From Cystobacter fuscus (GTDB taxonomy: Bacteria > Myxococcota > Myxococcia > Myxococcales > Myxococcaceae), in contig NZ_CP022098.1 in the NCBI RefSeq assembly GCF_002305875.1, forward strand, positions 10,850,001-10,914,000: a stretch of 64,000 nucleotides of DNA, in the 5' to 3' direction. The translations under genes and the position numbers were made by a program. Below, in pieces: positions 47,970 to 62,567 of this stretch. Under the pieces are notes generated by a model. The model saw only the letters and a program-made list of their open reading frames with translations. It made no database searches and was not told the DNA's origin. The stretch's first letter is position 1. The number at the start of each line of letters is the position of its first letter.

Positions 47970-49610
47970 CTAGGGCAGCCGTGAAGCCGCTTCATTCGAG
48001 TAGGCCCGGGCCAGGGCGAACGCGCCCCGGTCACGGCTGATGTCGCTCAAATGTTGGAGGAACCGCGTCTCCAACTCCATGTTGTTCGTGGCGCGTGCGC
48101 GCTGCCTACCGTGGAGCGCGTGCTCGCGCGCTTCCACCAACCGATGCTGCACCGTGTAGAGGTGCGTGAGGAACGACTCGAGCTCCCCGCATCGCGCATC
48201 CAGCCCCTGCCGCTCGCACTCGGGCAGGGCCGTGAGCACCGTGGCCTCGGCCTCACCCAGACGGGTCTGCGCGAATTGGGCCTCGGCACGTCGCAGCTCC
48301 ACGTCCATCAGGAACCACGGATCTCCCAACTCGCGCGCCGCCCGCGTGTACTCGTCCAACCGGGCCGGGAGCAGTCCGAGCAGGGGCAGTGCCCCCAACA
48401 ACAGATCCGTCTCGCCCGCCGCCTGGATGTTCCGAATGAAGGTCTCCGCCGCGCCGGGGGCGCTCCGTCCCGCCAGCACCTCGGAGAAGGTGGCCGCCAG
48501 CGGTCCTCGCTGGCGGAAGTCACGCCGGGCCATGCGCTCGACGTAGGGCTCCAGGACCCGGGCGCCGTAATGGGCGTCCAGTTCCCGGGCCAGGGGCAGC
48601 AGCTCGCGGAGGCGCCGCGCGCTCGGGGCCGACCAGACCGACAGGTACAGGGACTCGCGCGCGAGCAACGGCGCATCACGCAGCGTCCCCTCGGGCAGGG
48701 GCGTGCCCTTCTCGAGCAGCGCCTTGTTCGCGTCCAAGGCCATCACCCACCGGCGGGAGCGCGCCTCGGTCCGTGCCTTCAACGACGCGGCCCTCTCGCG
48801 CGCCTCGGTGCTCCAGCCCGGCTCGTTGCGCTCCGCCACGCGCGTGAAGGCCTGGGCCGCCAGGAGGTTCAGCTCCAGCTCGCGCAACACCAGCCCGCGG
48901 TTCCACAGCGCGGCGGAATGGTTCGGGTCCCGCTCGAGCACGTCCTCGAGCAGGATGAGCGCCGCCTCCAGCTCGCCCTTGGACAGCAAGGCCAGGGCCC
49001 GGTCACTGTCCGCGTCCGGTGTGGAGGGCGCCCGCTCGAGGGCCTCGGCGGCCTGCTCCCGCTCGCCTCGCAGCAGGTGCGCCGCCGCGACACCCTGGAA
49101 GTCCCCCTCCTCTTCCAGCCGCGCCAGCACCTTGAGCGGCACCGGCTCCGTCGGGCGCTCGTTGCCCGAGCGGTTCACCGCATAGGGCCGGTACGTGCTC
49201 GTCCCCCGCCAGCTCAGCCGTCCCTCGAGGGAGCGGGTCGGCCCCAGCGCCAGCGCCTCGGGCCCCCACTCCTCCGAGCCCGACAGCCGTGGAAGGACGA
49301 AGAGCAGGGCCGCGGCGAGCGACACGCCCACCGCAGAAGCCAGCCAGGTGCGGTGGACCCAGACGGGACGGAAGGCTCGCCCCCTCGAGGCCTTCTCCGG
49401 GCGGGGGGTCGTCCGGAGCGGAGGGGATGCCTGTTGCCGCGCCAGCTGCTCACCGAGGGACTGGAGCTGGAGCACGTCTTCCATTTCCTCCTGGCAGCGC
49501 GTGCACTCCCCGAGGTGGTCGCGAAAGGCCTCCGCCTCGGCGGGCTCCAGCTCGCCATCCACGAAGGCATGCAGCCGATCATGAATCTCTTCATCGATGG
49601 GCGTGCTCAT
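47970..49610 (-). CDS. Anti-sigma factor with zinc finger, membrane segment and TPR domain
   Basis: Membrane regulator of 546 residues. The N-terminal ZAS zinc site is His32-x3-Cys36-x2-Cys39 (DHLGECTRCQ), which holds the sigma factor inactive. One membrane helix lies near residues 86-107 (TWLASAVGVSLAAALLFVL). The remaining 440 residues, outside the membrane, are TPR-like helices. The stretch ALWNRGLVLRELELNLLAAQ and EPGWSTEARERA is nearly repeated in the divergent CHAT protein (ALWNRGLVLRELGLGLMAAD, EPGWSTEAKQRA), so the two are paralogous outside the membrane. Its start overlaps the sigma stop (49607-49610). Normal anti-sigma factors of this kind are about 200-250 residues, so the TPR domain is a major addition that could serve as a sensor or a protease docking site. 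Confidence 0.87.
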   Translation of the reverse strand: MSTPIDEEIHDRLHAFVDGELEPAEAEAFRDHLGECTRCQEEMEDVLQLQSLGEQLARQQASPPLRTTPRPEKASRGRAFRPVWVHRTWLASAVGVSLAAALLFVLPRLSGSEEWGPEALALGPTRSLEGRLSWRGTSTYRPYAVNRSGNERPTEPVPLKVLARLEEEGDFQGVAAAHLLRGEREQAAEALERAPSTPDADSDRALALLSKGELEAALILLEDVLERDPNHSAALWNRGLVLRELELNLLAAQAFTRVAERNEPGWSTEARERAASLKARTEARSRRWVMALDANKALLEKGTPLPEGTLRDAPLLARESLYLSVWSAPSARRLRELLPLARELDAHYGARVLEPYVERMARRDFRQRGPLAATFSEVLAGRSAPGAAETFIRNIQAAGETDLLLGALPLLGLLPARLDEYTRAARELGDPWFLMDVELRRAEAQFAQTRLGEAEATVLTALPECERQGLDARCGELESFLTHLYTVQHRLVEAREHALHGRQRARATNNMELETRFLQHLSDISRDRGAFALARAYSNEAASRLP

Positions 49611-50263
49611 CGGGAGGTGTCCTGTCCGCTGGTGGGGGGGATCAGCAGCTCCTTCAACCGGCGGCGCGCGCGAATGAGGCGCGTGCCCACCGTGGCCTTG
49701 GGAATGCCCAGGCTCTGGGCGATCTCCTGGTAGGAGCGGCCCTCCAGGGCGTGGAGCCGGTACACGGTGCGAAACTCCTCGGGAAGCCGCTCCAGCGCCG
49801 CGTGCAGGGCGTCCGGCCCCAGCGTGGCCCACGCCGGAGCGTCCTCGCGCTCGGGTTGCGCCACGTGCTCCTCGAGGCTCTCCGGGGACACGTCCGCACG
49901 GGGTTCGCGCTTGCGCGAGCGGCACCGGTCAATGAAGAGGCGGTTGAGAATGGTGAGCAGCCAGGCCCGTCCGTTCGTCCCAGGCTGGAAGCGCGCGAGG
50001 TTGCGCAGGCCCTTCTCGAGGGTGTCCTGCACCAGATCCCGCGCGTCCGTGGAATTGCCGCACAGCCGGAGCGCGGTGGCATGAAGCGCCGCCTCATGCT
50101 CCCTCACGAAGGCAGTGAACCAGGGACCGTCCAAGGCGACGGCGGTAGGAGGAGCCGATTCCAAGAGGTCAGCACAGTGGACCGTGCCCGCCAGGCCGGT
50201 CAAGCTCCGTGAAATCCAGGAATCCCGTACCGAAGGCCGCGCTGAGAGAGAGAAGGCATTCAT
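49607..50263 (-). CDS. ECF RNA polymerase sigma factor
   Basis: Sigma factor of 218 residues, normal for the ECF group. Region 2 is REHEAALHATALRLCGNSTD and ARDLVQDTLEKGLRNL followed by GRAWLLTILNRLFIDRCRSR; region 4 is ALERLPEEFRTVYRLHALEG and SYQEIAQSLGIPKATVGTRL. It directs RNA polymerase to a small set of promoters. GAGAAGGCGGACC lies directly before the ATG at 50263. A promoter of the same pattern as three downstream genes sits only 13 bases before that ATG (50277-50301), so the gene is probably autoregulated with a very short leader. It overlaps the anti-sigma start and is divergent from the CHAT gene. Confidence 0.95.
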   Translation of the reverse strand: MNAFSLSARPSVRDSWISRSLTGLAGTVHCADLLESAPPTAVALDGPWFTAFVREHEAALHATALRLCGNSTDARDLVQDTLEKGLRNLARFQPGTNGRAWLLTILNRLFIDRCRSRKREPRADVSPESLEEHVAQPEREDAPAWATLGPDALHAALERLPEEFRTVYRLHALEGRSYQEIAQSLGIPKATVGTRLIRARRRLKELLIPPTSGQDTSR

Positions 50264-50276
50264 GGTCCGCCTTCTC

Positions 50277-50301
50277 AACGCCACGGCCCCAGGATTTTCC
50301 C
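50277..50301 (-). promoter_or_regulatory. Predicted ECF promoter of the sigma operon
   Basis: On the minus strand GGGAAAAT (50301-50294), then 13 bases, then CGTT (50280-50277), preceded by C. It shares CGGGAARAT-N13-CGTT with three sites before genes on the other side (53207, 53972, 56536). The -10-like CGTT ends 13 bases before the ATG. Confidence 0.75.
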
Positions 50302-50325
50302 GGGCCGATTTTCCGCTGATTTTCC
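50293..50325. repeat. Three GATTTTCC repeats in the divergent control region
   Basis: GATTTTCC at 50293-50300, 50307-50314 and 50318-50325. The first overlaps the -35 part of the predicted sigma promoter. They may be activator or duplicated -35 sites. Confidence 0.55.
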
Positions 50326-50449
50326 GGACCCTCGGGGCCCACGGCCCCATCTTCATCGGGGTCCACGCGAGCACCGCCGCCTGTCTGCTCGCTACACTGC
50401 CCCCCCTTGGGACCTGACTCCGTCCCACCATGAAAGGCGAATCGAACCC

Positions 50450-53182
50450 GTGAAACTCCCCGTGAGGCTCCATGGAAGCGGGTGGGGCGTGGGGCTGGTG
50501 CTCGCCGCGGTCGCGGCTGGAGCGCTCTTCTTCTTCGCGCGGCCGCGAAAGCCCTCGGGGGATGTGTGGCTCGCCCGGACGCAGACGCGCGCTCGCGAGG
50601 CCCGCCTCGGCTACCCGGCCGCCGATGTCTACCGCCCCCACTCCCCCGTGCGCGCGGGAGCCTCCACCCTGCTCCCTCCACCGCTCCTCCAGGAGCTCGC
50701 CGCGCTCGAGGAGGCCCAGGACTTCCACGGCCTCGCCGCCGCGTATCTGCTGCGCGGCAACGCCACCCAGGCCGCGGTGTACCTGGACAAGGCCGGGCAC
50801 TCCCCGGACGTGGACTGCGACCGCGCCCTCCTCGCCCTGGACAGGGGAGACCTCCCCGAGGCGCTGGTGCTGCTCGACGGCGTGCTGACCGCCTCCCCCC
50901 GGCACCCGCGGGCGCTGTGGAATCGCGGACTGGTGCTGCGTGAGCTCGGCCTGGGCCTGATGGCCGCCGACGCCTTCGAGCGTGTCGCCTCCGTGGGCGA
51001 GCCCGGCTGGAGCACCGAGGCGAAGCAGCGCGCGGAGGAACTGCGCCGACAGGTGGAGGCGCACCAGTCCGCCTACGCCAGGGCCCTCGAGGTCGGCAAC
51101 GCGATGCGCGCCGGAGGCCCCGTCCCGCTGGAGCAGGCCCGCGCCTTCCCGGGACTCTTCCGCCTCTTCTTCTACGATGCGCTGCGCGCCGCCCCCACGC
51201 GGGAGCGGACGCTGGAGCTGCTCCCACTGGCCCAGGCGCTGGACACGCACGAGGGCCAGGACACCCTGGTGGCGCTGGTGTACCACGTGGCCGGGCGGGA
51301 CTTCTCCCGCCGGGGGCCGCTGGCGCGCGAGCATGATCGGCTCCGCCGCGAGCACGGCCCTCCCGCCGGGTGGCGGGCCCTCATCGAGCAGTCCCGCCGG
51401 GCGGGTGAGACGGACGTGCTCATGGGCGCGCTCTTCCACAGCCAGTCCATCCCCGCCCACCTGGAGGACTACGAGGCGCTCGCCGCCAGCACCAATGACA
51501 CCTGGTTCACCCTGCTCGCCGCGCACTGGCGCGCCGAGGCCGTGCAGAAGCTCGGAGACCGTGTCCACGCCGAGCAGCTTCTCCAGGCCGCGCTGCGCAC
51601 CTGCTCCACGAGCAGGCTGGACTACCGCTGCGCCGAGCTCGAGAACGATCTCGCCTTCGTCTATTCCGTGCTCCACCGCCCCGCCGACGCACGCCACCAC
51701 GCGCTCGCCGGGCTCCAGCGCGCCCGGCGAGACCACGACTGGGTGATGGAAATACGCCTGCTCCTCGCACTGGGGCAGATCGCGTACGTCGCGCTCAGCC
51801 CTCCGCTGGCGGAGGCCTGGTTCGGTGAGGCGCTCGCACGGGCGCCCCGGGACTGCCGCATGGTGCAGGGCATCCAGCAGAACCTCGCGGTGATGTACCA
51901 GCTGGCCCTGCGTCCCGCCGAGGCCCGCGCGCGCCTCGAGTTGGCGAGGGCGTGCGGCCCGCTCAACCAGCTCTCCGGCGTGGCCGTGCTCGCCGAGCTG
52001 GCCCGCTCCAGCACCCAGCTCGACGAGGACGCGAAGCACTTCGGGGCCGCGCTGGCGTCCCTCCGGGCCAGCGGGACGCTCAACCCCGGCGAGCAGCTCC
52101 TGCTGGCCCACTACGAGGCCCGCTTCGAGCTGGAGCGTGACCCGGCCCGGGGCCGCGAGCTGCTGCGAGGCAATCTGGAGGACGCGGCGAAGCTCGCGCG
52201 CGAGGACGTGAACGCCCGCAAGGCCCGCACGGCCAGCTACTCCTCGTTGATGTTCGACGCGGGCGGGGCCGGGGACTTCGAGGCCGCGCTGGCGCTCTTC
52301 GCCGAGGAGCAAGGCATGCCGGTACCGGAGCGCTGCTCGTTGGCGGTGGCCGTGGACGACGAGCGCACCCTGCTGGTGGCTCGCGGCCCCGAGGGAGGTG
52401 TGCGGGGCCAGCAGGACGCGAGCCGCACCACCCCCTTCCGCGAGGCCGAGGGGCTCGTGCCCGCCCCCCTTTTGGAGGTGCTCCGTCCGTGTGAGCGCAT
52501 CCAGGTGCTCGCGCGTCCCCCCGTGCAGGGGCACGCGGGTCTGCTGCCCCCCGAGCTGCCCTGGAGCTACCACGTGGGCCGCGCCGCTCCCCTCCACCCG
52601 GCTCCCGTCGCGGCCCGTCACCTGGTCGTCTCCGACGTGGAGCCCCCGGCGGCGCTCGGCCTGCCTCGGCTCAAGGCCTGGGCTCCGGGCGAGCCGGACG
52701 TGCGGCGCGGCGTGCTCTCCGGGGCCTCGGCCACTCCCGGACGGGTGCTCGCGGAGATGGTGGACGCCACCGAGCTCGAGATCCACGCCCACGGCCTGTT
52801 GAATCCCGAGGTCTCGGACGCCTCGCTGGTGGTGCTGTCCCCGGAGCCGGACGGGCGTTACGCCCTGACGGCCCGCGAGGTCCGCGCACAGACCCTGCGG
52901 GGCTCGCCGGTGGTCATCCTGGCGGCCTGCCGCGCGGCGTACACCGCCCCCTTCCTGCACGAGTCCTTCAGCCTGCCGGTGGCCTTCGTGGAGGCCGGAG
53001 CCCGTGCCGTCTTCGCCGCCACCGTGGACCTTCCGGACGCCGAGGCCGGTCCCTTCTTCGAGTCCGTGCGTGGGCGCATCCGGGCCGGGGCCACGCCCTC
53101 GGTGGCGCTCCGGGACGAGCGTCAGCTCTGGCTTCAGCGCTCCCACGCGCCCTGGGTCCGCGACGTGCTGCTCTTCGAGTGA
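50450..53182 (+). CDS. Membrane-anchored TPR-CHAT (caspase-like) protease
   Basis: Protein of 910 residues. A signal anchor lies near residues 10-28 (GWGVGLVLAAVAAGALFFF), so the bulk is outside the cytoplasm. Residues 70-640 are TPR-like helices, paralogous to those of the divergent anti-sigma factor. The C-terminal CHAT domain (about 690-905) has the catalytic His781 in EIHAHGLLN and Cys827 in VILAACRAAY, with the VSDASLVVLSPEPDGRYALT and AFVEAGARAVFAATVDLPDA strands between and after. CHAT peptidases are relatives of separase and caspases and cut specific protein partners. Placed back to back with an ECF sigma/anti-sigma pair, it may cut the anti-sigma TPR domain or a co-regulated protein. 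The ATG codon at 50450 is a GTG in the local sequence context (ACCCGTG); no strong ribosome site is seen. No promoter of the shared pattern precedes it. Confidence 0.85.
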   Translation: MKLPVRLHGSGWGVGLVLAAVAAGALFFFARPRKPSGDVWLARTQTRAREARLGYPAADVYRPHSPVRAGASTLLPPPLLQELAALEEAQDFHGLAAAYLLRGNATQAAVYLDKAGHSPDVDCDRALLALDRGDLPEALVLLDGVLTASPRHPRALWNRGLVLRELGLGLMAADAFERVASVGEPGWSTEAKQRAEELRRQVEAHQSAYARALEVGNAMRAGGPVPLEQARAFPGLFRLFFYDALRAAPTRERTLELLPLAQALDTHEGQDTLVALVYHVAGRDFSRRGPLAREHDRLRREHGPPAGWRALIEQSRRAGETDVLMGALFHSQSIPAHLEDYEALAASTNDTWFTLLAAHWRAEAVQKLGDRVHAEQLLQAALRTCSTSRLDYRCAELENDLAFVYSVLHRPADARHHALAGLQRARRDHDWVMEIRLLLALGQIAYVALSPPLAEAWFGEALARAPRDCRMVQGIQQNLAVMYQLALRPAEARARLELARACGPLNQLSGVAVLAELARSSTQLDEDAKHFGAALASLRASGTLNPGEQLLLAHYEARFELERDPARGRELLRGNLEDAAKLAREDVNARKARTASYSSLMFDAGGAGDFEAALALFAEEQGMPVPERCSLAVAVDDERTLLVARGPEGGVRGQQDASRTTPFREAEGLVPAPLLEVLRPCERIQVLARPPVQGHAGLLPPELPWSYHVGRAAPLHPAPVAARHLVVSDVEPPAALGLPRLKAWAPGEPDVRRGVLSGASATPGRVLAEMVDATELEIHAHGLLNPEVSDASLVVLSPEPDGRYALTAREVRAQTLRGSPVVILAACRAAYTAPFLHESFSLPVAFVEAGARAVFAATVDLPDAEAGPFFESVRGRIRAGATPSVALRDERQLWLQRSHAPWVRDVLLFE

Positions 53183-53206
53183 GCAAATCCCTGGGAAATT
53201 TCCCCC

Positions 53207-53231
53207 GGGAAGATTCCAGGGAGGCATCGTT
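53207..53231 (+). promoter_or_regulatory. Predicted ECF promoter before the unknown gene
   Basis: GGGAAGAT, 13 bases, CGTT, preceded by C. CGTT is followed by CTCC as in the 53972 site. It lies 53 bases before the ATG at 53284. A GGGAAATTTCCC palindrome (53193-53204) sits just upstream and may bind a regulator. Confidence 0.75.
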
Positions 53232-53283
53232 CTCCTCGCGGCACGTGAGAGTTCCAGGAGCCATGTCGCGAGGGAGAATGACG

Positions 53284-53916
53284 ATGAAGGACGTGAAGCC
53301 GTTGATGGGGGCGCAGGGGTCTGGGTTGTCCGTCGCGGGCGGCATCAAGCCGACGGAGCCCCTTCAGGAGGAGAGCGGAGCGAGCGACGCGAGCGGGATC
53401 CCGGTGCGCCCGGGGGTTCCCCCCCCCGTCATCACCCTGTCGAGCACGGTGAACCTGAACCAGCTCTGGCGGACGACGAGGACCGCGCGCAAGTTCGTCC
53501 AGGTGGTGGCGTACACGCTCCCGCCCAATGCCGCGGGCCAGGTTCCTCCGCCGCGCTTCCGCGCCTTTGGCCTGGACATGTCCACCGGCGCCTACGTCTT
53601 CGTGATCGATGGGCAGCTCCAGACGGAGCTGGGCCCCTTCACCGAGAACATGCTCAGCCAAAAGGCCATCCTCATCACCACGCCTCCCGGGGTCAGCTAC
53701 CACCGCTCGTCCCCGAGCCAGGCCACGGACGCGGCGGCCGGTGATGCGGGCCCCCCCATCTCGTGGGGCACCCAGCCCATCACCCCGCCCCCCCCGCCCC
53801 AGGGCAGGGACGGTTACGTTTACGGCTGGGAGCTCAATTGGAATCGCTTGCCGGAGATGGCCCGCGCGGTGAACTCCGTCCTCCCCGACAGCTTCCTGCC
53901 GGCCGAGATCATCTGA
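53284..53916 (+). CDS. Unknown protein of the ECF/CHAT locus
   Basis: Protein of 210 residues without signal or membrane segment. The first 55 residues are disordered and Pro/Gly rich (KPTEPLQEESGASDASG). The middle (about 60-145) looks folded (VNLNQLWRTTRTARKFVQVV, RAFGLDMSTGAYVFVIDGQL). A Pro-rich stretch (ITPPPPPQGRDG) precedes a conserved-looking end (YVYGWELNWNRLPEMARAVN). I do not recognise it. The ATG at 53284 has AGGGAGA 6 bases upstream and is preferred over ATGs at 53263 and 53278. It follows the CHAT gene by 101 bases with its own ECF-type promoter, so it is a likely target of the sigma factor and a candidate partner or substrate of the CHAT protease. The last two points are inference. 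Confidence 0.75.
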   Translation: MKDVKPLMGAQGSGLSVAGGIKPTEPLQEESGASDASGIPVRPGVPPPVITLSSTVNLNQLWRTTRTARKFVQVVAYTLPPNAAGQVPPPRFRAFGLDMSTGAYVFVIDGQLQTELGPFTENMLSQKAILITTPPGVSYHRSSPSQATDAAAGDAGPPISWGTQPITPPPPPQGRDGYVYGWELNWNRLPEMARAVNSVLPDSFLPAEII

Positions 53917-53971
53917 CCCGGGCCCCGGCCCTGTGTCACGTGGCCCTCGCGAGTCTTCGCGCTGAACTCGC

Positions 53972-53996
53972 GGGAAGATACGGGGCCGCCTCCGTT
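53972..53996 (+). promoter_or_regulatory. Predicted ECF promoter before the phospholipase-like gene
   Basis: GGGAAGAT, 13 bases, CGTT, preceded by C, followed by CTCC. CGTT ends 29 bases before the ATG at 54026. Confidence 0.75.
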
Positions 53997-54025
53997 CTCC
54001 AAGGCACAACGCTTCTGGAGGACGC

Positions 54026-56455
54026 ATGCCGCCCGATTTCCACCCTCGCTTCGCCCGCTCGAATCGCACGCTCGCGGGTGCCCTGCTGCTGGGGCTGCTC
54101 TCGCCCCCGAGCGCTTCCGCCTACAACGCCTCGCTCAAGGCCCAGGCCCATCAGTATTTCGCCGGTGAGGCCTACCAGTGCCTCCCGTCCTCCACGCCGG
54201 ACCAGCAGGCCGTGCGCACCGAGTTCGCCCCGTACATCGGCCAGCGCATCCTCTGGAACGCGGCTGGAAAGAACAACCAGACGGTGGACGGCCAGGAGGC
54301 GTGGACGGGCCAGTTCTGGACGTACACGGGGGATGGCGAGGCCAACCCCGCCACGGGGCTGCCGTACACGTCCGGCTACCCGCTCCAGTCCATCGACATG
54401 ACGGACGACTCCTCCATGTCGAACCTCACGTTGCATCCCGCCAATGACGTCATCGAGGGTTCCTTCGCCGAGGACTACCGCGATGGACTCACCGGTCACG
54501 CCGTGCCCACTGGCGGTGTGGAGCAGTGGGAATTCTGGGACCACCACTTCTGGAACCCCGAGAGCGACGACGACGGCGAGTTCTCCGACGACTTCGGGGG
54601 CGGCAACGGCTCGGCCGTCAACCGCGCGGAGACGTACTGGCGCGGGACGATCGTTCCCCACTACGACGAGTGGGTCCTCACCGGTGATCCCGCCGCGAAG
54701 GGCCTCGCCTACGGGTACCTCGGGCGCACGGTGCACCTGCTGGAGGACATCTCCGGGCCGGACCACGCGCACAACGATGGGCACATCCCCGCCGACTCGG
54801 AGGACGAGTGGGAACTGCCCGGCCTCGCCTTCGGAGGCTGCGGCTTCGAGGACTACACGAGCATCCACTACGCGGACTACCAGGGCTCGGCCGCGCTGGC
54901 TCCGGTGAGCTACCGCATCGACGATCCGGTGGATCCCTTCATGTCCAAGGCGCGCCAGGAGTGGAACGCCCACGGCTTCCCCTCCGCCTGGCGCGCCGCG
55001 AAGGCGCCGCTCTTCTGGCTCTTCTACAGCCAGGCCGAGTACGCCAACGACTACCCCTCCAACGACGAGGACGGCGAGAACCCCGGGTACAACTCGTCCG
55101 CGTACCTCACCTTCGCGGATGACTGGACCTGGACGAACTCGTGGGTGGGCAAGGCGTTCGCGGATGACCTGGTGCCCACGGCGCTGCGGCACGTGGCGGG
55201 CCTCTACCGGCTCTTCTACGACACCACGCACCCGATCCAGGGCCTCGTCGTCAACAACGGGGTGGTGGGCCGGACCCCCATGTCCTGGTTCTCCGGGGGG
55301 CTCGCCACGGATGCCGCCTTCTATCTCAACCACGCCAACGCCGCGGGCGGGATGCCCTTCCAGCTCTCCCTGCGTCCGGGGCTGCCCTATGCCTCCATTG
55401 CGCTGGTGGCGCGCTCCTCGCTCTACCGCGATCCCTCGCAGGCCCTGCTCATGTACAACATCGAGAAGGCGATGAAGCTGGTGAACCCGGCCTCCCGCCA
55501 CCCGGCCTGGAAGGTGCTCTACAGCGCCAGCACGAGCGCCACGGAGCACATCGCGTCCCTCGCCCTGCCCGAGGACGGGGACTATGACCTCTACCTGGAG
55601 GTGACGTACCGCGCGGACCCCTTCGCCCTGGTGGACGACAACGGGCACCACGGCAGCGCGTACACGGTGCACCAGCGCATCGGGAGGGTGCTGCTCGACC
55701 GCGTGGCGCCCATGGCTCCCACCACCGTCACCGGGCCCGTGCAGACGGCACAGCCCTTCGTGAGCGTCACCTGGAGCTACGGCCAGTCCCCGGCGATGGC
55801 GTCCTTCGAGGCGCTGGTGTCCCGCGACACGGGCAACCCCAACGTCATCGGCACCGAGGTGTACTCCGAGCAGACCGCGTACCAGGGCATCACCACGCCC
55901 ATGCCGCTCGAGGACGGGAAGTACGTGGTGCGGGTTCGCGCGCGGGACATCGTGGGCAACACCTCCGCGTGGACCCTGTCCAACGTCATCCATGTGGACA
56001 CCACCCACCCCAAGCTGGCCCTCACCACGCCCAGGGGCGCCTCCCCGTACTCGAAGTGGGACGCGAGCCCCCTGTTCCGCGTGGCCGGCTGGACGCATGA
56101 CTGGAGCACCGGCGTGGGGCTCCGGTCGCTTCAGGTGTGGAATGACTCCCGCTTGCGTTCGCCGGTGTACCCGGTGGATTCGAGCGTGCTGCTGCCCGGG
56201 ACGGTGCCGCCCACCACCGAGCTCTGCACGGGCCTCTGCCCCATCCCCATCGAGCTCCCGGAGCCAGTGCCCTCGTGGGAGGACACCCACCAGCAGCCCT
56301 TCGCCTATGACGTCACCGTCTACGATGGGCCCAACTCCCTCCATGTCCGCGCGGAGGATCTGCTGGGCCACGTGACCGAGCTGGTGCTGGAGGTGAACTA
56401 CTCGGCGCCCAGGACGAGCCTCCACCCAGGACTTCAGCGCACCCCGGGGCAGTGA
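54026..56455 (+). CDS. Secreted zinc phospholipase C-like protein
   Basis: Exported protein of 809 residues. A signal peptide (TLAGALLLGLLSPPSASAYN) is cut near residue 32. Residues about 45-440 resemble zinc-dependent phospholipase C/S1-P1 nuclease folds: an early Trp/His face (WNAAGKNNQ), RGTIVPHYDEWVLTGDPAA and GRTVHLLEDISGPDHAHND (about 233-252), whose His and Asp residues could bind zinc ions. The C-terminal 370 residues contain beta domains with fibronectin-like strands (FVSVTWSYGQSPAMASFEAL, YVVRVRARDIVGNTSAWTL). Such enzymes attack phospholipids of other cells, which fits a predatory lifestyle. GGAGGACGC lies before the ATG. It has its own ECF-type promoter at 53972. The enzyme activity is inferred from the motif layout. 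Confidence 0.72.
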   Translation: MPPDFHPRFARSNRTLAGALLLGLLSPPSASAYNASLKAQAHQYFAGEAYQCLPSSTPDQQAVRTEFAPYIGQRILWNAAGKNNQTVDGQEAWTGQFWTYTGDGEANPATGLPYTSGYPLQSIDMTDDSSMSNLTLHPANDVIEGSFAEDYRDGLTGHAVPTGGVEQWEFWDHHFWNPESDDDGEFSDDFGGGNGSAVNRAETYWRGTIVPHYDEWVLTGDPAAKGLAYGYLGRTVHLLEDISGPDHAHNDGHIPADSEDEWELPGLAFGGCGFEDYTSIHYADYQGSAALAPVSYRIDDPVDPFMSKARQEWNAHGFPSAWRAAKAPLFWLFYSQAEYANDYPSNDEDGENPGYNSSAYLTFADDWTWTNSWVGKAFADDLVPTALRHVAGLYRLFYDTTHPIQGLVVNNGVVGRTPMSWFSGGLATDAAFYLNHANAAGGMPFQLSLRPGLPYASIALVARSSLYRDPSQALLMYNIEKAMKLVNPASRHPAWKVLYSASTSATEHIASLALPEDGDYDLYLEVTYRADPFALVDDNGHHGSAYTVHQRIGRVLLDRVAPMAPTTVTGPVQTAQPFVSVTWSYGQSPAMASFEALVSRDTGNPNVIGTEVYSEQTAYQGITTPMPLEDGKYVVRVRARDIVGNTSAWTLSNVIHVDTTHPKLALTTPRGASPYSKWDASPLFRVAGWTHDWSTGVGLRSLQVWNDSRLRSPVYPVDSSVLLPGTVPPTTELCTGLCPIPIELPEPVPSWEDTHQQPFAYDVTVYDGPNSLHVRAEDLLGHVTELVLEVNYSAPRTSLHPGLQRTPGQ

Positions 56456-56535
56456 AGCCCTCCGATGACCTGTCCAGGCTTCATCCCCCACAAGGAGTTG
56501 CCTGGCAGGTGGCCTTCGTCGATGAAATGCCCAGC

Positions 56536-56560
56536 GGGAAGATCTCCTCCGAGCTTCGTT
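56536..56560 (+). promoter_or_regulatory. Predicted ECF promoter before the C39-like lipoprotein
   Basis: GGGAAGAT, 13 bases, CGTT, preceded by C and followed by TCCTCC. It lies 79 bases before the ATG at 56640 and is the fourth site of the pattern. Confidence 0.72.
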
Positions 56561-56639: not shown

Positions 56640-58472
56640 ATGAAGAACAAGAACTCCTGGACCGCCGTTTTCGCACTCACCCTGGCTGGCTGCGGGGTGG
56701 GGGATCCCCAGACGGACCTCGCGGCCGACGTGCCACAACGCCCCGAGCCGCGGACAGAGCAGCCATTGATGAGCAGACAGGCCCTGCCGGTCACGCGGGT
56801 GCCGCGGGAGTCCCATCGCCTGGCGGCGCAGCTCCTCGAGGACGTGCGGGGGACCGAGAGCGCCCCGACCTGGGGGAGCGCCATCCTGGCTCCCGATGTG
56901 CAGCCCCTGTACCGGCCGGATGTCCTGGGCGTGGCCTACTACGAGTTCCGCGTGCTCGTCCGGGAACGGCCCATGGGCTTCATCATCGTGTCGACGGGCT
57001 CACACGACTATCCCATCGCCCACTGGAACTTCGAGGGGCTGTCGCCGACCGAGACCCTGAGTCAGACGACGGGCAAGGCGGTCACCACCTTCTACAAGGT
57101 GGACGCCCTCTCCTACGTGGCCGAGGGTCTCGAGGGCGAGCTGCTGGCGAACATGGGCGGCCTGCCCCACCGCATCGTGGGTCAGGACCCGGCCGCGCTC
57201 GATGGCCCCATCACGCCAACAGACGTCTCGTGGGTGCCGGAGGTGGCGATCGCCGATGATCGCGAAGCCTCCAGGGCCGTGGCCCGCCGGGTCGTCGATG
57301 GCCCGAGCACTCCCACCCAACCCATCGAGCTGACCGGCTGGCGATCGTGGCAGGAGCTCAAGGCGGGCTACCGTGAGTCCTATGCCCCCATCGCGGAGTC
57401 GCTGAAGCGTCAGGCGGAGGAGGAGTGGAAGACGGATGCCCTGGCGCGGGACTCGGGGGAGGGGCTCGTCGAGGGCCGGTCCGCCGAGCTGGCGTTGCTG
57501 TACCCCCAGGCCGAGGTCCGGCTCAGCGGGGACGGCTCCAAGTACGTCAGGTCCGAGCTCGTCACCACTTCCGCGGGCAACCAGAAGCTGGTGCTGACCG
57601 CGTTCGCGGCCAAGCCCGGCGTCGAGCTGCCGCTGACCGTGGACATCCATTACGGCAACGCCTCCGCCGAGTCGCTGCGCTTCATCGTCCTGGCGCGCGG
57701 GGATGTGAGTCTGGCGGAGGCGTCCACCTCGAGCTCCGACGGCTCCGAGAGCGTGCACTGGGCGGACCTGGGACTGCTGGGGGCCTGGAGTCCATGGTCC
57801 ACCTCCTACGCCAGCACTCATGCGGATCAGCGCCTCTACGGGCAGATGCCCTCCGGCACCGGGCCGAACACCTCCGGGTGCTACAGCGGTTGTGGCGCCA
57901 CGGCCTGGTCGATGCTGCTCGGCTGGGGTGATCTCCAGGCGTCCCTGGGCAACCCGACCTGGGTCAAGCGCTGGGGCATGTACCGCGCGAACGGCGGCTA
58001 CGACGCCGACGCGGTGGCGCCCGTGAGCATGGACACCGGCGTGCGCAACATGACCTGGGAGTTGCGCAACCACGTCGACACCTTCTGCAACCCCTTCAAT
58101 GACAATGGTGCCACCGCCCCCTGGGACATGGACGAGGCCAACGACTACCTGAAGGGTCGCTCGGGGGCGACCGTGTCCACCCACTACAACATCCTGGGTT
58201 ACCACGCGACGGGGCTGCGCGAGAGGGCGCGTGACTCCATCAAGGATCGGAAGGTACCCGCCATCATCGGCACGGGCTGGCTGACCCACTACCCGCTGGC
58301 CTACGGCTACCGGTTCCGCAGCCGCACCGTGAAGACGTGCTTGCTCTTCATCTGCTGGAAGGACACCGAGTACCAGCGCGAGTTCTACGTCAACCAGGGT
58401 CACAGCGGGTACGGCAACAGCTGGATCGGCGCGGGCACGTGGTTCGCGGGCGAACTCTCTCCCAACAACTGA
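56640..58472 (+). CDS. Lipoprotein with C39-like cysteine peptidase domain
   Basis: Exported lipoprotein of 610 residues with lipobox Cys (LTLAGCGVGD, near residue 19). The N-terminal 370 residues are a family-specific pro-like region. The C-terminal domain has the papain/C39-like triad: Cys418 (CYSGCGATAWSMLLGW), His550 (GTGWLTHYPLAYGYR) and an Asn/Asp in YGNSWIGAGTW near residue 595. This matches C39_2-type peptidases, which trim leader peptides or digest protein. Either GTG (56637) or ATG (56640) could start it; GGAGAG lies close upstream. It is followed 9 bases later by the metzincin gene and so heads an operon that has an ECF-type promoter at 56536. Confidence 0.82.
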   Translation: MKNKNSWTAVFALTLAGCGVGDPQTDLAADVPQRPEPRTEQPLMSRQALPVTRVPRESHRLAAQLLEDVRGTESAPTWGSAILAPDVQPLYRPDVLGVAYYEFRVLVRERPMGFIIVSTGSHDYPIAHWNFEGLSPTETLSQTTGKAVTTFYKVDALSYVAEGLEGELLANMGGLPHRIVGQDPAALDGPITPTDVSWVPEVAIADDREASRAVARRVVDGPSTPTQPIELTGWRSWQELKAGYRESYAPIAESLKRQAEEEWKTDALARDSGEGLVEGRSAELALLYPQAEVRLSGDGSKYVRSELVTTSAGNQKLVLTAFAAKPGVELPLTVDIHYGNASAESLRFIVLARGDVSLAEASTSSSDGSESVHWADLGLLGAWSPWSTSYASTHADQRLYGQMPSGTGPNTSGCYSGCGATAWSMLLGWGDLQASLGNPTWVKRWGMYRANGGYDADAVAPVSMDTGVRNMTWELRNHVDTFCNPFNDNGATAPWDMDEANDYLKGRSGATVSTHYNILGYHATGLRERARDSIKDRKVPAIIGTGWLTHYPLAYGYRFRSRTVKTCLLFICWKDTEYQREFYVNQGHSGYGNSWIGAGTWFAGELSPNN

Positions 58473-58481
58473 GGGATGCAC

Positions 58482-61400
58482 ATGAGAACATCATCCATTG
58501 GACTGGGCCTGCTCGTCGTCCTGGGTCTCACCCCACCTGTGCGAGCCGACACACCGTCGACCCTGCTGACGGACACGGACGGCATTTCTGGTTTCGAGTT
58601 GTACGGCCAGGGCCTCCACTGGTGGCGCGGCGATGGCGGCTGCGGGGGCGAGTTCCCCGTGACCGCGACCCTCCGGCTCCGGGGGACCCCCACCGGGGCG
58701 ACGAAGAAGCTGGCGCGGGACTGCGCCCTCCTCGACGGTGTCTCGAACGTCGTGCGAGATGACGCCTACGTCTACTTCATCAGCAACGGTCAACTCCAGC
58801 GCAAGGCCCTCAACGCCGCCGAGACCGACCCCTCCACCGAAGTCGCCACCCCGCCGTACAGCCCCACGCTGCCGTCCTGGCAGAATGGCGCGGTCCTGGA
58901 ACTGGCCAACGGGCAGCTCTACTTCGCCCGACTGCTCTCCTCGGGTGGCAACAGCGCGCTCTACTCCCTGAAGACAGACGGGAGCGGCTCGGCGGCGTGG
59001 CTCGCCAGCCTGGGCCAGGGCGGGGTCTCCCAGATGGAGTGGGTGAACTACTCGGACTCCGGCACCAGCACGGATGCCCTGGTCATCCTCATGAGCGATG
59101 GCCGGCTGCTGCGCTACAAGATCGGCGGTGGCGTCACGCAGCTCGCCTCGGGCATCGCCAGCTTCGCCCTCCATTCGGTGTGGAGTTTCTTCTCCAGCAC
59201 TACCTCCGTGTACGCCGCGCAGGGCGCGCAGACGGGCAAACTCTTCAAGATCAACCTCGCCACGGGCAGCGGCGCCACCACGGCCATCTACACCGCCTCT
59301 GGCATCAACCAGTTGTCGGGGGTCACCACGGACAGCGCGCTGAGCCTCATCTCGCTGGGCAACCCGGTGGAGAAGTACGTCTACATCTCCGAGGCGCCGG
59401 TGACCTGCGGGAGTCTCCTCTGCGTGCCGGGAGTGCCATTCATCAAGCGGCACGCGCTGTCCACCAGCACGTTCAACAACTGGCAGCTCATCGTCTCCAG
59501 CGGCAACGGGGGCGGCAACCTGCGCAGTGATGACCAGTGGCTCTATTTCACCCGTGGCAACAGCATCATGAAGATCTCCACGGGCGCGGCACCGCTCCAA
59601 CTGGACCTGAAAGCAGACGCGATGGAGGTGGTGCAGGCATCCCAGACACTCAACAACTCCGTACCGCTGGTGGCCAACCGGCCCACGTTCGTGCGTGCCT
59701 ATGCCCACGTGGAGACCAATACCACGGGGAACTCCACCTTCCTGCCCGAGGCCACCCTGCGTGGCTTCCGCAACGGCGTGGAGATCTCCGGCTCGCCGCT
59801 CAGCCCCACCAACGATCCGAAAATCGACTCGACGAAGGACATGAACACGCTGCGTCCGGCCCTGGACCGCAGCTTCCTCTTCCAGCTGCCCGACAGCTGG
59901 ACCTCCGCCGGGTCCATCTCCCTGCAGTTCACCGTGAACCCCCACGCGACCCTCCCCGAGACCGGCGCCGCTTCCAACACCGTGGGCCCGGCGGTCTTCA
60001 CGTTCAACTCCAAGGCCTCGCCCTGCCTGGTGTTCGTCCCCGTGTGGACCCGTCCGGCGACCATCTCCAGCAACCCACCGGGCCTGTCGCAGATGGTCGC
60101 CAGGGCCCGATCGCTGCTGCCGGTGGAGCGCTTCAAGACATTCGTCAAGACGTCGCCGCTGGTCAAACCGGTGGTGCACGTCGAGGTCATCTGGACCCCG
60201 CTGCCCATCCCCGTGCCCGTCATCCATGACGAGCCCTATGACTTCCCGGGTGACCAGGACACGGCCATGGCGTGGTTGACGATACGAGACCTCACCTCGA
60301 GCGACCCTTCCGGCTGCCTGGATCCCTCGCACTGGGTCGGCATGGTCCACCCGGACGAGCCTGGCTTCAACGGCCTCGGTCTGACGAGCTTCAACAAGGA
60401 TCTGCTGGTGCGCATGGATGCGGGGGGCAACGTGAGCTCGCTCAAGAGCTGGGGCCTGCCGATGGGTGGGCGCACGCTGGCCCACGAGCTCAGCCACAAC
60501 TACGGCCGCGAGCACATCGACCAGAGCACCACCTCGATGCCCACGGCCTGCGGCGGCAAGGCTCCCAAGGGTCCGTTCGACGTGCCCCCGTTCGATACGT
60601 GCACCATTGGCTCTCCCACGGATCCGACGGCGCTCTTCGGTCTGGACTCGCTCAAGCCCACGGTCATCCCCCCGGGCGCGGTGGGGGACCTGATGTCGTA
60701 CGCCACCACCCGGTGGGTCTCGGACTTCACCTGGAAGGCCCTCTTCAATGAGCTGCCCGCGACCAGCTCGTTCGCTCCCTTGCTGGCGCCCGGCATGACG
60801 CCCTTGCTGAGCGGCCCGGTGCTGCTCGTCACGGGGCTCGTGGATGACACACGGCAGACCGCGACCTTCGAGAGCTTCCTCCAGTTCCCCCAGGGCGTGG
60901 CGGATGCGGGCAAGCTGGCGAAGTCCGCCTCCGCGTCGGCGGCGGCCAGCCGGGACGCCCAGCCGTTCTACCTCCGGCTGCTGGATGCCTCGGGCGCGGT
61001 GCTCTCCGACACCCCGCTGGCGACGGACGCCGGCACGGAGGAGGGCTCGAAGCGGGTCTTCGTGCAGTACGTCCCGTTCGCCAGCGAGACGGCGCGCGTG
61101 CAACTGGTGCGCGGCTCCCTCGTGTATGTGGAGCGGGCGGTGAGCGCCAACGCGCCAGTGCTGTCGCTGGGCACGCCCGTGGCCGACACGGCGGCACGGA
61201 CACTGACGGTGAGCTGGAGCGCCTCGGACGCGGACACCGACGACGCGCTGCTCTACACCTTGCAGTACAGCTCCGATGACGGGCAGACGTGGCAGACGGT
61301 GCTGACGGCGCACCCCTGGTCCACCGCGGTGCTGGACACACGGATGCTCGCGGGCACCCCCACGGCACGCGTCCGGGTGCTGGTCTCCGACGGCGTCAAC

Positions 61401-62567
61401 ACCCGCATGGCCACCAGCAACGCCTTCACCCTCCCGCGCAATGCTCCCGAGGCGCGGATCGACGGCATCCTCGAGGGCGAGCGCCTGCCGTATGGGCAGC
61501 AGCTCTCGTTGCAGGGACTCGCCGTGGACGCGGAGGACGGTGCCCTGCTGCGTCAGCTGCGCTGGAGCCTCAGCGGGCCCGTGGGCGCGAGCGGCAGTGG
61601 CGAGTCGCTGCTGGTGGGGGACCTGCCGCCGGGCAGCTACACCGCGACCCTGAGCGCCACCGACTCCGACAAGCAGGTGGGCTCCGCCGTGCGGCACTTC
61701 GAGGTGCTGCCCCTGGCCATCCCCGAGGGCGTGGCGCCCCGGCTGGATGGCGAGTGCAACGACTCGGCCTACACCTCGGGTGCCTCCATCCGGTTGTCGC
61801 TGGGCAACGGGCGGTACGCGAGGGGCTGGCTGCTTCACTCGGGCACGACCCTCTCCGCGTGCTTCACCGACTTGAAGCTCGCCAGCGGCTCCTCCACGGC
61901 CACCGCCGTGGGGCTCCGGATGGATGCCAACGCCAGCCGGGACACCGTGGCGCAGCCGGGGGATCTCGGCTTCTACGTGGACCAGGAGGGCATTCCGTTC
62001 CAGGTGGTGGGCACTGGCTCGGCCATGCCCGTCACGCTCTCGCCGCAGGCGGGTTACACGGCGGTCATCCAGCGCAATGCCAATGGCTGGAGCGCGGAGC
62101 TGAGCATCGCGGACAGCCTCGTCGGGGGATGGAACCACGCCGCCGGAGTGATGGTGAGTCACACGGGCCTGACGTCGGTGGGAGATGACTGGGTGTGGCC
62201 GACGCGGGCCGTCTCCGACAAGCCCTCCACCTGGGCATCCGCCTGGCTGGGCACGCTCCCGGCGCAGCCCAACCGCGCGCCCACGGCCGAGGCCGGTGAG
62301 CCGCAGCGCATCGTCATCGGCGCCGAGCGCGCCATCTCCCTGGACGGGGGCGCGAGCTTCGATCCGGACGGCGACGCGCTGGCCTACAGTTGGACGCAGG
62401 TGTCCGGCCCGGCGGTGACGTTGACCGAGGCCGGCACGGCCACGCCGAACTTCACCATGGACCGCATCACCGCTCCGGTGACGCTCCAGTTCCAGCTCTC
62501 CGTGAGTGATGGCTCGCTGCGGAGCGCCGCGGACACCGTACAGGTGCAGCTCATCCCTGGCCGATAA
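58482..62567 (+). CDS. Secreted metzincin-type metallopeptidase with beta-domains
   Basis: Exported protein of 1361 residues. A signal peptide (IGLGLLVVLGLTPPVRA) starts it. The first 350 residues are propeller-like repeats. The zinc site is His668-Glu-Leu-Ser-His672-Asn-Tyr-Gly-Arg-Glu-His678, which is the metzincin HExxHxxGxxH form, and a Met-turn candidate lies in GDLMSYATTRW about 75 residues later. After the peptidase come Ig-like domains (about 870-1080), a carbohydrate-binding-like domain (about 1080-1240, APRLDGECNDSAYTSG) and a PKD-like end (DGGASFDPDGDALAYSW). It probably degrades protein outside the cell. GAGGG lies 6 bases before the ATG at 58482, favoured over the ATG at 58476. 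It is in an operon with the C39-like lipoprotein. Confidence 0.85.
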   Translation: MRTSSIGLGLLVVLGLTPPVRADTPSTLLTDTDGISGFELYGQGLHWWRGDGGCGGEFPVTATLRLRGTPTGATKKLARDCALLDGVSNVVRDDAYVYFISNGQLQRKALNAAETDPSTEVATPPYSPTLPSWQNGAVLELANGQLYFARLLSSGGNSALYSLKTDGSGSAAWLASLGQGGVSQMEWVNYSDSGTSTDALVILMSDGRLLRYKIGGGVTQLASGIASFALHSVWSFFSSTTSVYAAQGAQTGKLFKINLATGSGATTAIYTASGINQLSGVTTDSALSLISLGNPVEKYVYISEAPVTCGSLLCVPGVPFIKRHALSTSTFNNWQLIVSSGNGGGNLRSDDQWLYFTRGNSIMKISTGAAPLQLDLKADAMEVVQASQTLNNSVPLVANRPTFVRAYAHVETNTTGNSTFLPEATLRGFRNGVEISGSPLSPTNDPKIDSTKDMNTLRPALDRSFLFQLPDSWTSAGSISLQFTVNPHATLPETGAASNTVGPAVFTFNSKASPCLVFVPVWTRPATISSNPPGLSQMVARARSLLPVERFKTFVKTSPLVKPVVHVEVIWTPLPIPVPVIHDEPYDFPGDQDTAMAWLTIRDLTSSDPSGCLDPSHWVGMVHPDEPGFNGLGLTSFNKDLLVRMDAGGNVSSLKSWGLPMGGRTLAHELSHNYGREHIDQSTTSMPTACGGKAPKGPFDVPPFDTCTIGSPTDPTALFGLDSLKPTVIPPGAVGDLMSYATTRWVSDFTWKALFNELPATSSFAPLLAPGMTPLLSGPVLLVTGLVDDTRQTATFESFLQFPQGVADAGKLAKSASASAAASRDAQPFYLRLLDASGAVLSDTPLATDAGTEEGSKRVFVQYVPFASETARVQLVRGSLVYVERAVSANAPVLSLGTPVADTAARTLTVSWSASDADTDDALLYTLQYSSDDGQTWQTVLTAHPWSTAVLDTRMLAGTPTARVRVLVSDGVNTRMATSNAFTLPRNAPEARIDGILEGERLPYGQQLSLQGLAVDAEDGALLRQLRWSLSGPVGASGSGESLLVGDLPPGSYTATLSATDSDKQVGSAVRHFEVLPLAIPEGVAPRLDGECNDSAYTSGASIRLSLGNGRYARGWLLHSGTTLSACFTDLKLASGSSTATAVGLRMDANASRDTVAQPGDLGFYVDQEGIPFQVVGTGSAMPVTLSPQAGYTAVIQRNANGWSAELSIADSLVGGWNHAAGVMVSHTGLTSVGDDWVWPTRAVSDKPSTWASAWLGTLPAQPNRAPTAEAGEPQRIVIGAERAISLDGGASFDPDGDALAYSWTQVSGPAVTLTEAGTATPNFTMDRITAPVTLQFQLSVSDGSLRSAADTVQVQLIPGR

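Follow-up and report, generated by a model that had tools for sequence, protein, structure and literature searches.

Why should four copies of one promoter-like motif stand together in a 64,000-nucleotide stretch of the Cystobacter fuscus genome (NZ_CP022098.1, positions 10,850,001 to 10,914,000; hereafter the window, meaning that whole stretch), one of them before the gene of an extracytoplasmic function (ECF) sigma factor and three before genes of other kinds? Here we consider whether the motif is the promoter of that sigma factor, what lies behind it, and how the sigma factor might be released. Our preferred answer is an autoregulated ECF switch working like the DdvS/DdvA pair of Myxococcus xanthus, in which a caspase-like CHAT protein sets the sigma factor free; to this whole statement, CHAT step included, we give a probability of about 0.5. 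Sigma factor, promoter and regulon alone, leaving the CHAT step aside, we regard as very probably correct.

A probable promoter motif and its sigma factor

The initial annotation of this DNA had reported four ECF-type promoters sharing the pattern CGGGAARAT-N13-CGTT, all intergenic and correctly oriented, and had read them as an autoregulated ECF sigma factor controlling a local set of exported hydrolases; a genome-wide search and conservation in related genomes were proposed as checks. GGAA-type -35 and CGTT-type -10 elements are a known form of ECF promoter. A pattern scan of the window (GGGAARATN{12,14}CGTT) recovered the four sites at the positions and on the strands below, with N13 in every case, where 0.02 are expected from shuffles and none of 100 shuffles reached four. 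All four are intergenic under the chosen gene starts and face the right way.

50277..50302, minus strand: predicted promoter of the sigma gene (autoregulation), CGGGAAAAT-N13-CGTT; window and genome motif scans, orthologous site in relatives
53206..53231, plus strand: predicted promoter of the 210-residue protein gene, CGGGAAGAT-N13-CGTT; motif scans, kept in the sister species G033
53971..53996, plus strand: predicted promoter of the 809-residue exported-type protein gene; motif scans, site and gene missing in G033
56535..56560, plus strand: predicted promoter of the C39-like gene and probably also of the metzincin gene behind it; motif scans, kept in G033
49607..50263, minus strand: ECF sigma factor gene, 218 residues; Pfam Sigma70_r2 and r4_2 (4.6e-16 each), alignment of 20 relatives

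The sigma protein has Sigma70_r2 at residues 52-119 and r4_2 at 152-203, that is, sigma regions 2 and 4 only, and scores 96.3 bits against the TIGR02937 sigma70-ECF model, whose cut-off is 42.9.

In the whole genome (12,349,744 bases) CGGGAARATN13CGTT has exactly four matches, every one of them in this locus at the sites listed, and the reversed-pattern control has none. Looser patterns are at background: GGAAN{14,19}CGTT alone is not significant (nine matches against 4.7 expected, equalled in eight of 100 shuffles), and GGGAARNTN12-14CGTY gives 53 matches against 63 in its control. The signal is therefore carried by the extended -35 element and the exact spacer. The spacer letters of the four sites are mutually different, so that duplication of a single stretch does not seem to have produced them. 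When one mismatch is tolerated the genome holds 10 sites against four for the control. Of the six extra sites four fall within called genes, another is followed by no called gene over the 1.5 kb displayed, and the sixth, some 175 bases upstream of a gene, has an altered -10; as candidate further members of the regulon they add nothing convincing. Since they are mostly intragenic or altered, the regulon looks local in C. fuscus. The description as local thus appears to suit this genome but not its relatives, where the sites are spread over the genome.

The motif was then compared with the sigma factor across 96 genomes of the family, here given G numbers, of which 30 contain a close sigma relative (at least 170 bits). 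All 30 have the motif, as against four of the other 66 (Fisher 6.8e-21). By hand-compiled per-genome counts there are 137 sites in the 30 genomes and five in the four others, a total of 142 sites in 34 genomes; a control pattern matches three times in the 30 and six times in the 66. Within one genus, g19, the motif is found in 14 of 14 genomes with the sigma factor and 0 of 13 without it, and in the genus to which the window belongs the two genomes lacking a sigma relative (G032, G034) also lack the motif.

Spacer length, likewise compiled by hand, is sharply defined. Against 137 sites with N13 (135 with the G form alone), the 30 genomes yield 4, 22, 4, 20, 3 and 2 sites with N10, N11, N12, N14, N15 and N16, respectively; the corresponding numbers in the 66 other genomes are 7, 37, 5, 56, 2 and 6. 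The N11 and N14 peaks are taken for coding sequence because both half-sites then share a reading frame and, for N14, a single string turns up in many genomes. The spacer sequences themselves vary among the 142 sites.

Every one of the 142 sites could be placed, and 20 of them lie upstream of the sigma gene in as many of the 30 genomes. The distance from the end of the site to the in-frame sigma ATG is 9-17 bases in 19 of these and 123 in the remaining one; in the window the ATG stands 13 bases past CGTT (50263-50302). Such short distances suggest that the sigma mRNA may be very short-leadered or nearly leaderless. Co-occurrence, exact spacing and the exact match found ahead of sigma in 20 of 30 genomes favour the autoregulated ECF sigma factor of the initial annotation, and this factor is predicted to recognise a GGAA-type -35 and a CGTT-type -10 at fixed spacing, its own promoter included.

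Genes behind the motif

A called gene start lies at most 110 bases downstream of 98 of the 142 sites. Seventy-eight of these genes encode neither a sigma factor nor a CHAT protein, and 59 of them begin with a signal-peptide-like sequence, compared with 97 of 409 controls taken from those loci (Fisher 4e-18). This comparison leaves out seven sigma and 13 CHAT genes; it uses a home-made hydrophobicity rule as signal-peptide score and a simple gene caller based on GC by codon position, which missed 13 of 20 sigma genes and some small exported open reading frames. Among the 19 genes that do not score, several resemble lipoproteins or exported proteins by eye.

Thirty representative products were searched against Pfam, and 17 have a match at E-values up to 0.01. 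In other genomes, eight of the 30 have a peptidase- or beta-lactamase-like match above Pfam's own cut-off, to M23, S8, M64, S9, the met-zincin family DUF4953, M10, astacin (M12A) and Beta-lactamase2; others belong to DUF6345, RCC1, RHS/FG-GAP or ricin-lectin. Being exported is the common trait of the cargo, and hydrolases are part of it. The sequences accordingly support a slightly altered reading, in which an ECF sigma factor under its own control serves exported proteins that are partly hydrolases.

The window's own predicted targets are the following.

53284..53916, plus strand: 210-residue protein; 82% identical homolog in G033
54026..56455, plus strand: 809-residue exported-type protein; signal-peptide-like start, enzyme class unproven
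56640..58472, plus strand: 610-residue lipoprotein-like protein; lipobox-like start, papain/C39-like Cys...His arrangement by eye
58476..62567, plus strand: 1363-residue protein; start of exported type as judged by eye, metzincin signature HExxHxxGxxH seen in the translation, PKD domain

Export, as judged by the simple rule or by eye, extends to the last three but not to the 210-residue protein, which has no match in Pfam or NCBIfam searches and no visible signal peptide. As to hydrolases, the metzincin signature and the C39-like Cys/His arrangement can be seen by eye, whereas the phospholipase name given earlier to the 809-residue protein finds no family match. Parts of the 809- and 610-residue proteins match nothing in Pfam at E-values up to 10, so that the labels 'phospholipase' and 'C39' both rest on by-eye reading. 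The 809-residue protein has a weak immunoglobulin-like match (Big_13, 2e-4) under Pfam's cut-off, and the 1363-residue protein matches K319L-like_PKD at 9.1e-13, its best Pfam peptidase match being Reprolysin_5 at just 0.085. AlphaFold2 models of the 809-residue protein (from one sequence) and the C39-like protein (from two) have mean predicted local distance difference test scores (pLDDT) of 31.6 and 29.6, too low for a fold search.

Three of these targets are of narrow distribution. The 809-residue gene is matched in one of the 96 genomes, its own, and the C39-like gene in two; the 1363-residue gene has a full-length match in one of the four genomes of the genus, again its own. The sister species G033 lacks both the 809-residue gene and its promoter, and keeps the 210-residue and C39-like genes with theirs. 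Regulon proteins in general split into many small families. In these comparisons the promoter is constant across relatives and the cargo changes, and such private cargo suggests that predatory bacteria might swap their exported proteins and leave the trigger unchanged.

Two further arrangements were seen in relatives. At seven loci in as many genomes (L174, L181, L200, L209, L218, L226, L229) some 250 bases following the motif are conserved and no exported open reading frame is evident; the next called gene, found in six of the seven, is 359-1274 bases away. This non-coding-looking family is possibly a sigma-driven small RNA or leader. At L144 (4501-4616, genome G035) a back-to-back pair of motifs is aimed at two opposed genes of 1478 and 1482 residues as called, one of these very large genes being RHS/FG-GAP-like.

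Presumed anti-sigma and CHAT proteins

On either side of the sigma gene lies a gene on which the initial annotation was silent, one coupled to it and one adjacent.

47970..49610, minus strand: presumed anti-sigma factor, 546 residues, with zf-HC2 (1.6e-9), hydrophobic segment and tetratricopeptide repeat (TPR) region (TPR matches)
50450..53182, plus strand: transmembrane (TM)-TPR-CHAT protein, 910 residues, divergent from sigma; CHAT PF12770, 6.5e-12

The first overlaps the sigma gene by 4 bases, and its product, which has one hydrophobic segment by eye and ends after the TPR region with no CHAT domain, is predicted to bind and inhibit the sigma factor. The second is a CHAT-type protein with both the caspase-like His and Cys, for which protease activity is predicted. 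The TPR parts of the two are 42% identical over 443 residues. A split of one from its neighbour was considered and is improbable, since the TPR tree places them in different clades, the presumed anti-sigma factor among anti-sigma factors (100/99) and the CHAT protein among standalone CHAT proteins (92/90, just below the starred level).

A TPR anti-sigma gene lies beside the sigma gene in 24 of the 30 genomes. At 17 of these 24 loci its chain carries a CHAT domain of its own; CHAT-less versions occur in six genomes (G000, G033, G039-G042) and form a single clade (89/84). The twenty-fourth gene (G067, L215 143-1737) is interrupted by a stop and lies behind a sigma gene with an exact motif; G067 is either a natural strain with a broken anti-sigma factor or an assembly fault. 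All six genomes with a CHAT-less anti-sigma factor contain a further full-length CHAT relative, seemingly standalone: the zinc finger is absent from the five checked, that of G040 being judged by open-frame length only. A motif stands before this further gene in G039, G041 and G042; in G000, where the gene adjoins the sigma gene, there is none. In all, standalone TM-TPR-CHAT genes stand behind an exact site at 14 loci in 13 genomes, with three more behind a one-mismatch site. The CHAT His and Cys are invariant in 38 aligned rows, an alignment that excluded the anti-sigma factors lacking CHAT, the interrupted G067 protein and L086, a duplicate locus, and both are also aligned in the solved relative 8rot.

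The zinc-finger/TPR protein has up to 10 matches per genome (for example G000 C1:7061940-7063541), many in open frames near 1000 residues with a fused CHAT domain. Those fetched each adjoin a sigma gene of their own, and each may have its own promoter.

From promoter activity, anti-sigma function, topology and CHAT cleavage as we infer them, the switch would work as follows, perhaps in predation or digestion outside the cell. The sigma factor would be held at the membrane by the zinc-finger/TPR anti-sigma factor, whose TPR parts, outside the cytoplasm, would sense an external signal. On that signal the caspase-like CHAT protein, here the separate TM-TPR-CHAT protein, would most likely cleave or otherwise inactivate the anti-sigma factor and so release sigma. 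Free sigma would then recognise CGGGAAGAT-N13-CGTT, raise its own operon and switch on exported proteins, some of them hydrolases, and in many relatives a CHAT gene also. The weak step is that release should begin with a CHAT protease acting in cis or in trans, and to this we would attach slightly less than even odds. More tentative still is the full picture of a caspase-gated switch, with a TPR-CHAT protease at the membrane (in cis at most compared loci, in trans here) cutting the anti-sigma factor, a constant promoter, near-complete turnover of cargo and, in many relatives, a CHAT gene under the same promoter. If true, the trigger would be conserved and the arsenal it sets off private and quick to change.

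Sigma factor and promoter could also be as described with the CHAT protein an output, a protease for the maturation of exported proteins or for attack on the cell or its prey, the anti-sigma factor being freed by conformational change or by site-1/site-2 proteases. Motif-driven standalone CHAT genes at 14 loci are what outputs would look like, and six anti-sigma factors without a CHAT domain, together with six genomes having sigma and motif and no TPR anti-sigma gene beside sigma, fit the same idea. It sits less well with the homologous TPR region shared by anti-sigma and CHAT proteins, with the CHAT domain inside the anti-sigma chain at 17 of the 24 loci having both genes, and with the separate CHAT relative retained by each genome whose anti-sigma factor is CHAT-less. 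On balance we consider an output role a serious contender, though somewhat short of an even chance. It is much less credible that the motif is the site of another regulator, activator or repressor, linked to the locus. Co-occurrence alone would not distinguish such a regulator from the sigma factor, but the two half-sites at exactly one spacer, their GGAA/CGTT form as known for ECF promoters and the closeness of gene starts all argue for a sigma promoter, and the motif occurs in genomes where sigma is the only one of the locus's three regulatory genes found at the place. Chance, or a repeated element, has nothing more in its favour than that this one genome has few sites, and is refuted by the genome-wide count, sigma co-occurrence and the spacer test: for the window 0.02 sites were expected, with four reached in none of 100 shuffles, and 142 sites with variable spacers occur in 34 genomes. 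We give it next to no weight.

Several observations weigh against the autoregulated, CHAT-released switch that we prefer. The cut at 170 bits was set once the scores were known to leave a gap from 172 down to 138.5 bits; taking all 36 genomes that match sigma at E-values up to 1e-30 as positives, the motif is found in 31 of 36 versus three of 60. Ten of the 30 genomes lack an exact site before the sigma gene, two of them (G014, G040) having a one-mismatch site and the other eight nothing convincing, so that autoregulation is not universal. For 30 of the 142 sites, which belong to neither sigma nor CHAT genes, the gene caller places no start in the next 110 bases; as judged by eye, an exported open reading frame overlooked by the caller follows ten of them and seven belong to the non-coding-looking family, while three, in genomes without the sigma factor, share with one of the 19 non-scoring genes a common recurring open reading frame and look background-like. 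Thirteen of the 30 representative products have no Pfam match. The window's CHAT gene shows no motif on its strand in a scan of 50251-50500 allowing up to four mismatches. Finally, the 5-8 kb fetched from each of six genomes (G004, G007, G035-G038) yielded no TPR anti-sigma gene at E-values up to 1e-3; these genomes nonetheless have the motif, so the promoter does not require that regulator, and orthology is less certain in them. At their loci (L237, L238, L282-L285) the sigma relative is 59-64% identical over the matched part and the motif is present, with seven sites in G035.

Comparison with known systems

As far as we have found, the regulon, its lineage-specific cargo and the split design of a CHAT-less anti-sigma factor with an adjacent, separate TM-TPR-CHAT protein are new: no prior description of this regulon came up in the literature searched, which covered few subscription journals and no bioRxiv. 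The promoter, sigma factor and candidate target list (142 sites in 34 genomes) are now available for a regulator akin to DdvS/DdvA, the nearest studied relative, which has no known signal (PMC4374960) and no published regulon in the papers searched.

The ddvS promoter of M. xanthus needs the ECF factor DdvS, which becomes active once the anti-sigma factor DdvA is inactivated (PMC4374960); the texts searched on DdvS/DdvA name no DdvS regulon of exported proteins. The presumed anti-sigma factor of the window is related to the solved chains 8rot and 8rlz, the latter, shorter chain being named 'Antisigma factor DdvA'. The sole solved relative found by sequence search, 8rot/8rw5 (991 residues), is named 'CHAT domain-containing protein', and is probably full-length DdvA since its zinc-finger letters are the same as in 8rlz. 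It aligns both with the window anti-sigma factor (zinc finger and TPR) and with the window CHAT protein (TPR and CHAT). Like DdvA, the window protein has a zinc finger, one TM segment (by eye) and a TPR region, and is encoded directly behind sigma; 8rot, however, joins zinc finger, TPR and CHAT in one chain, where the window has two genes from two clades. With its CHAT domain in the neighbouring gene, the window pair is classed as a system that works like DdvS/DdvA and not as an ordinary member of that type. Natural strains with protease and anti-sigma factor as two genes make the cleavage idea directly testable.

The ECF54 group also has CHAT and subtilase genes nearby and is described as functioning without an anti-sigma factor (PMC8999054). 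Both have CHAT and peptidase genes in the vicinity of an ECF sigma gene, but the window encodes a zf-HC2 protein directly downstream of sigma and in this departs from ECF54.

In Craspase, a TPR-CHAT protease, Csx29, cleaves the sigma-factor inhibitor Csx30, and CASP-sigma has binding sites in its own locus (PMC10028731). It is thereby the precedent for cleavage of a sigma inhibitor by a TPR-CHAT protein. The window resembles it in having a TPR-CHAT protein beside sigma and inhibitor and motif sites in its own locus. Craspase, however, is RNA-activated through Cas7-11, whereas no part of a clustered regularly interspaced short palindromic repeats (CRISPR) system was seen among the window genes examined, in which no dedicated CRISPR search was made. 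The window inhibitor, for its part, has a zinc finger and a hydrophobic segment. The locus is a possible non-CRISPR counterpart to the TPR-CHAT/sigma circuit of Craspase.

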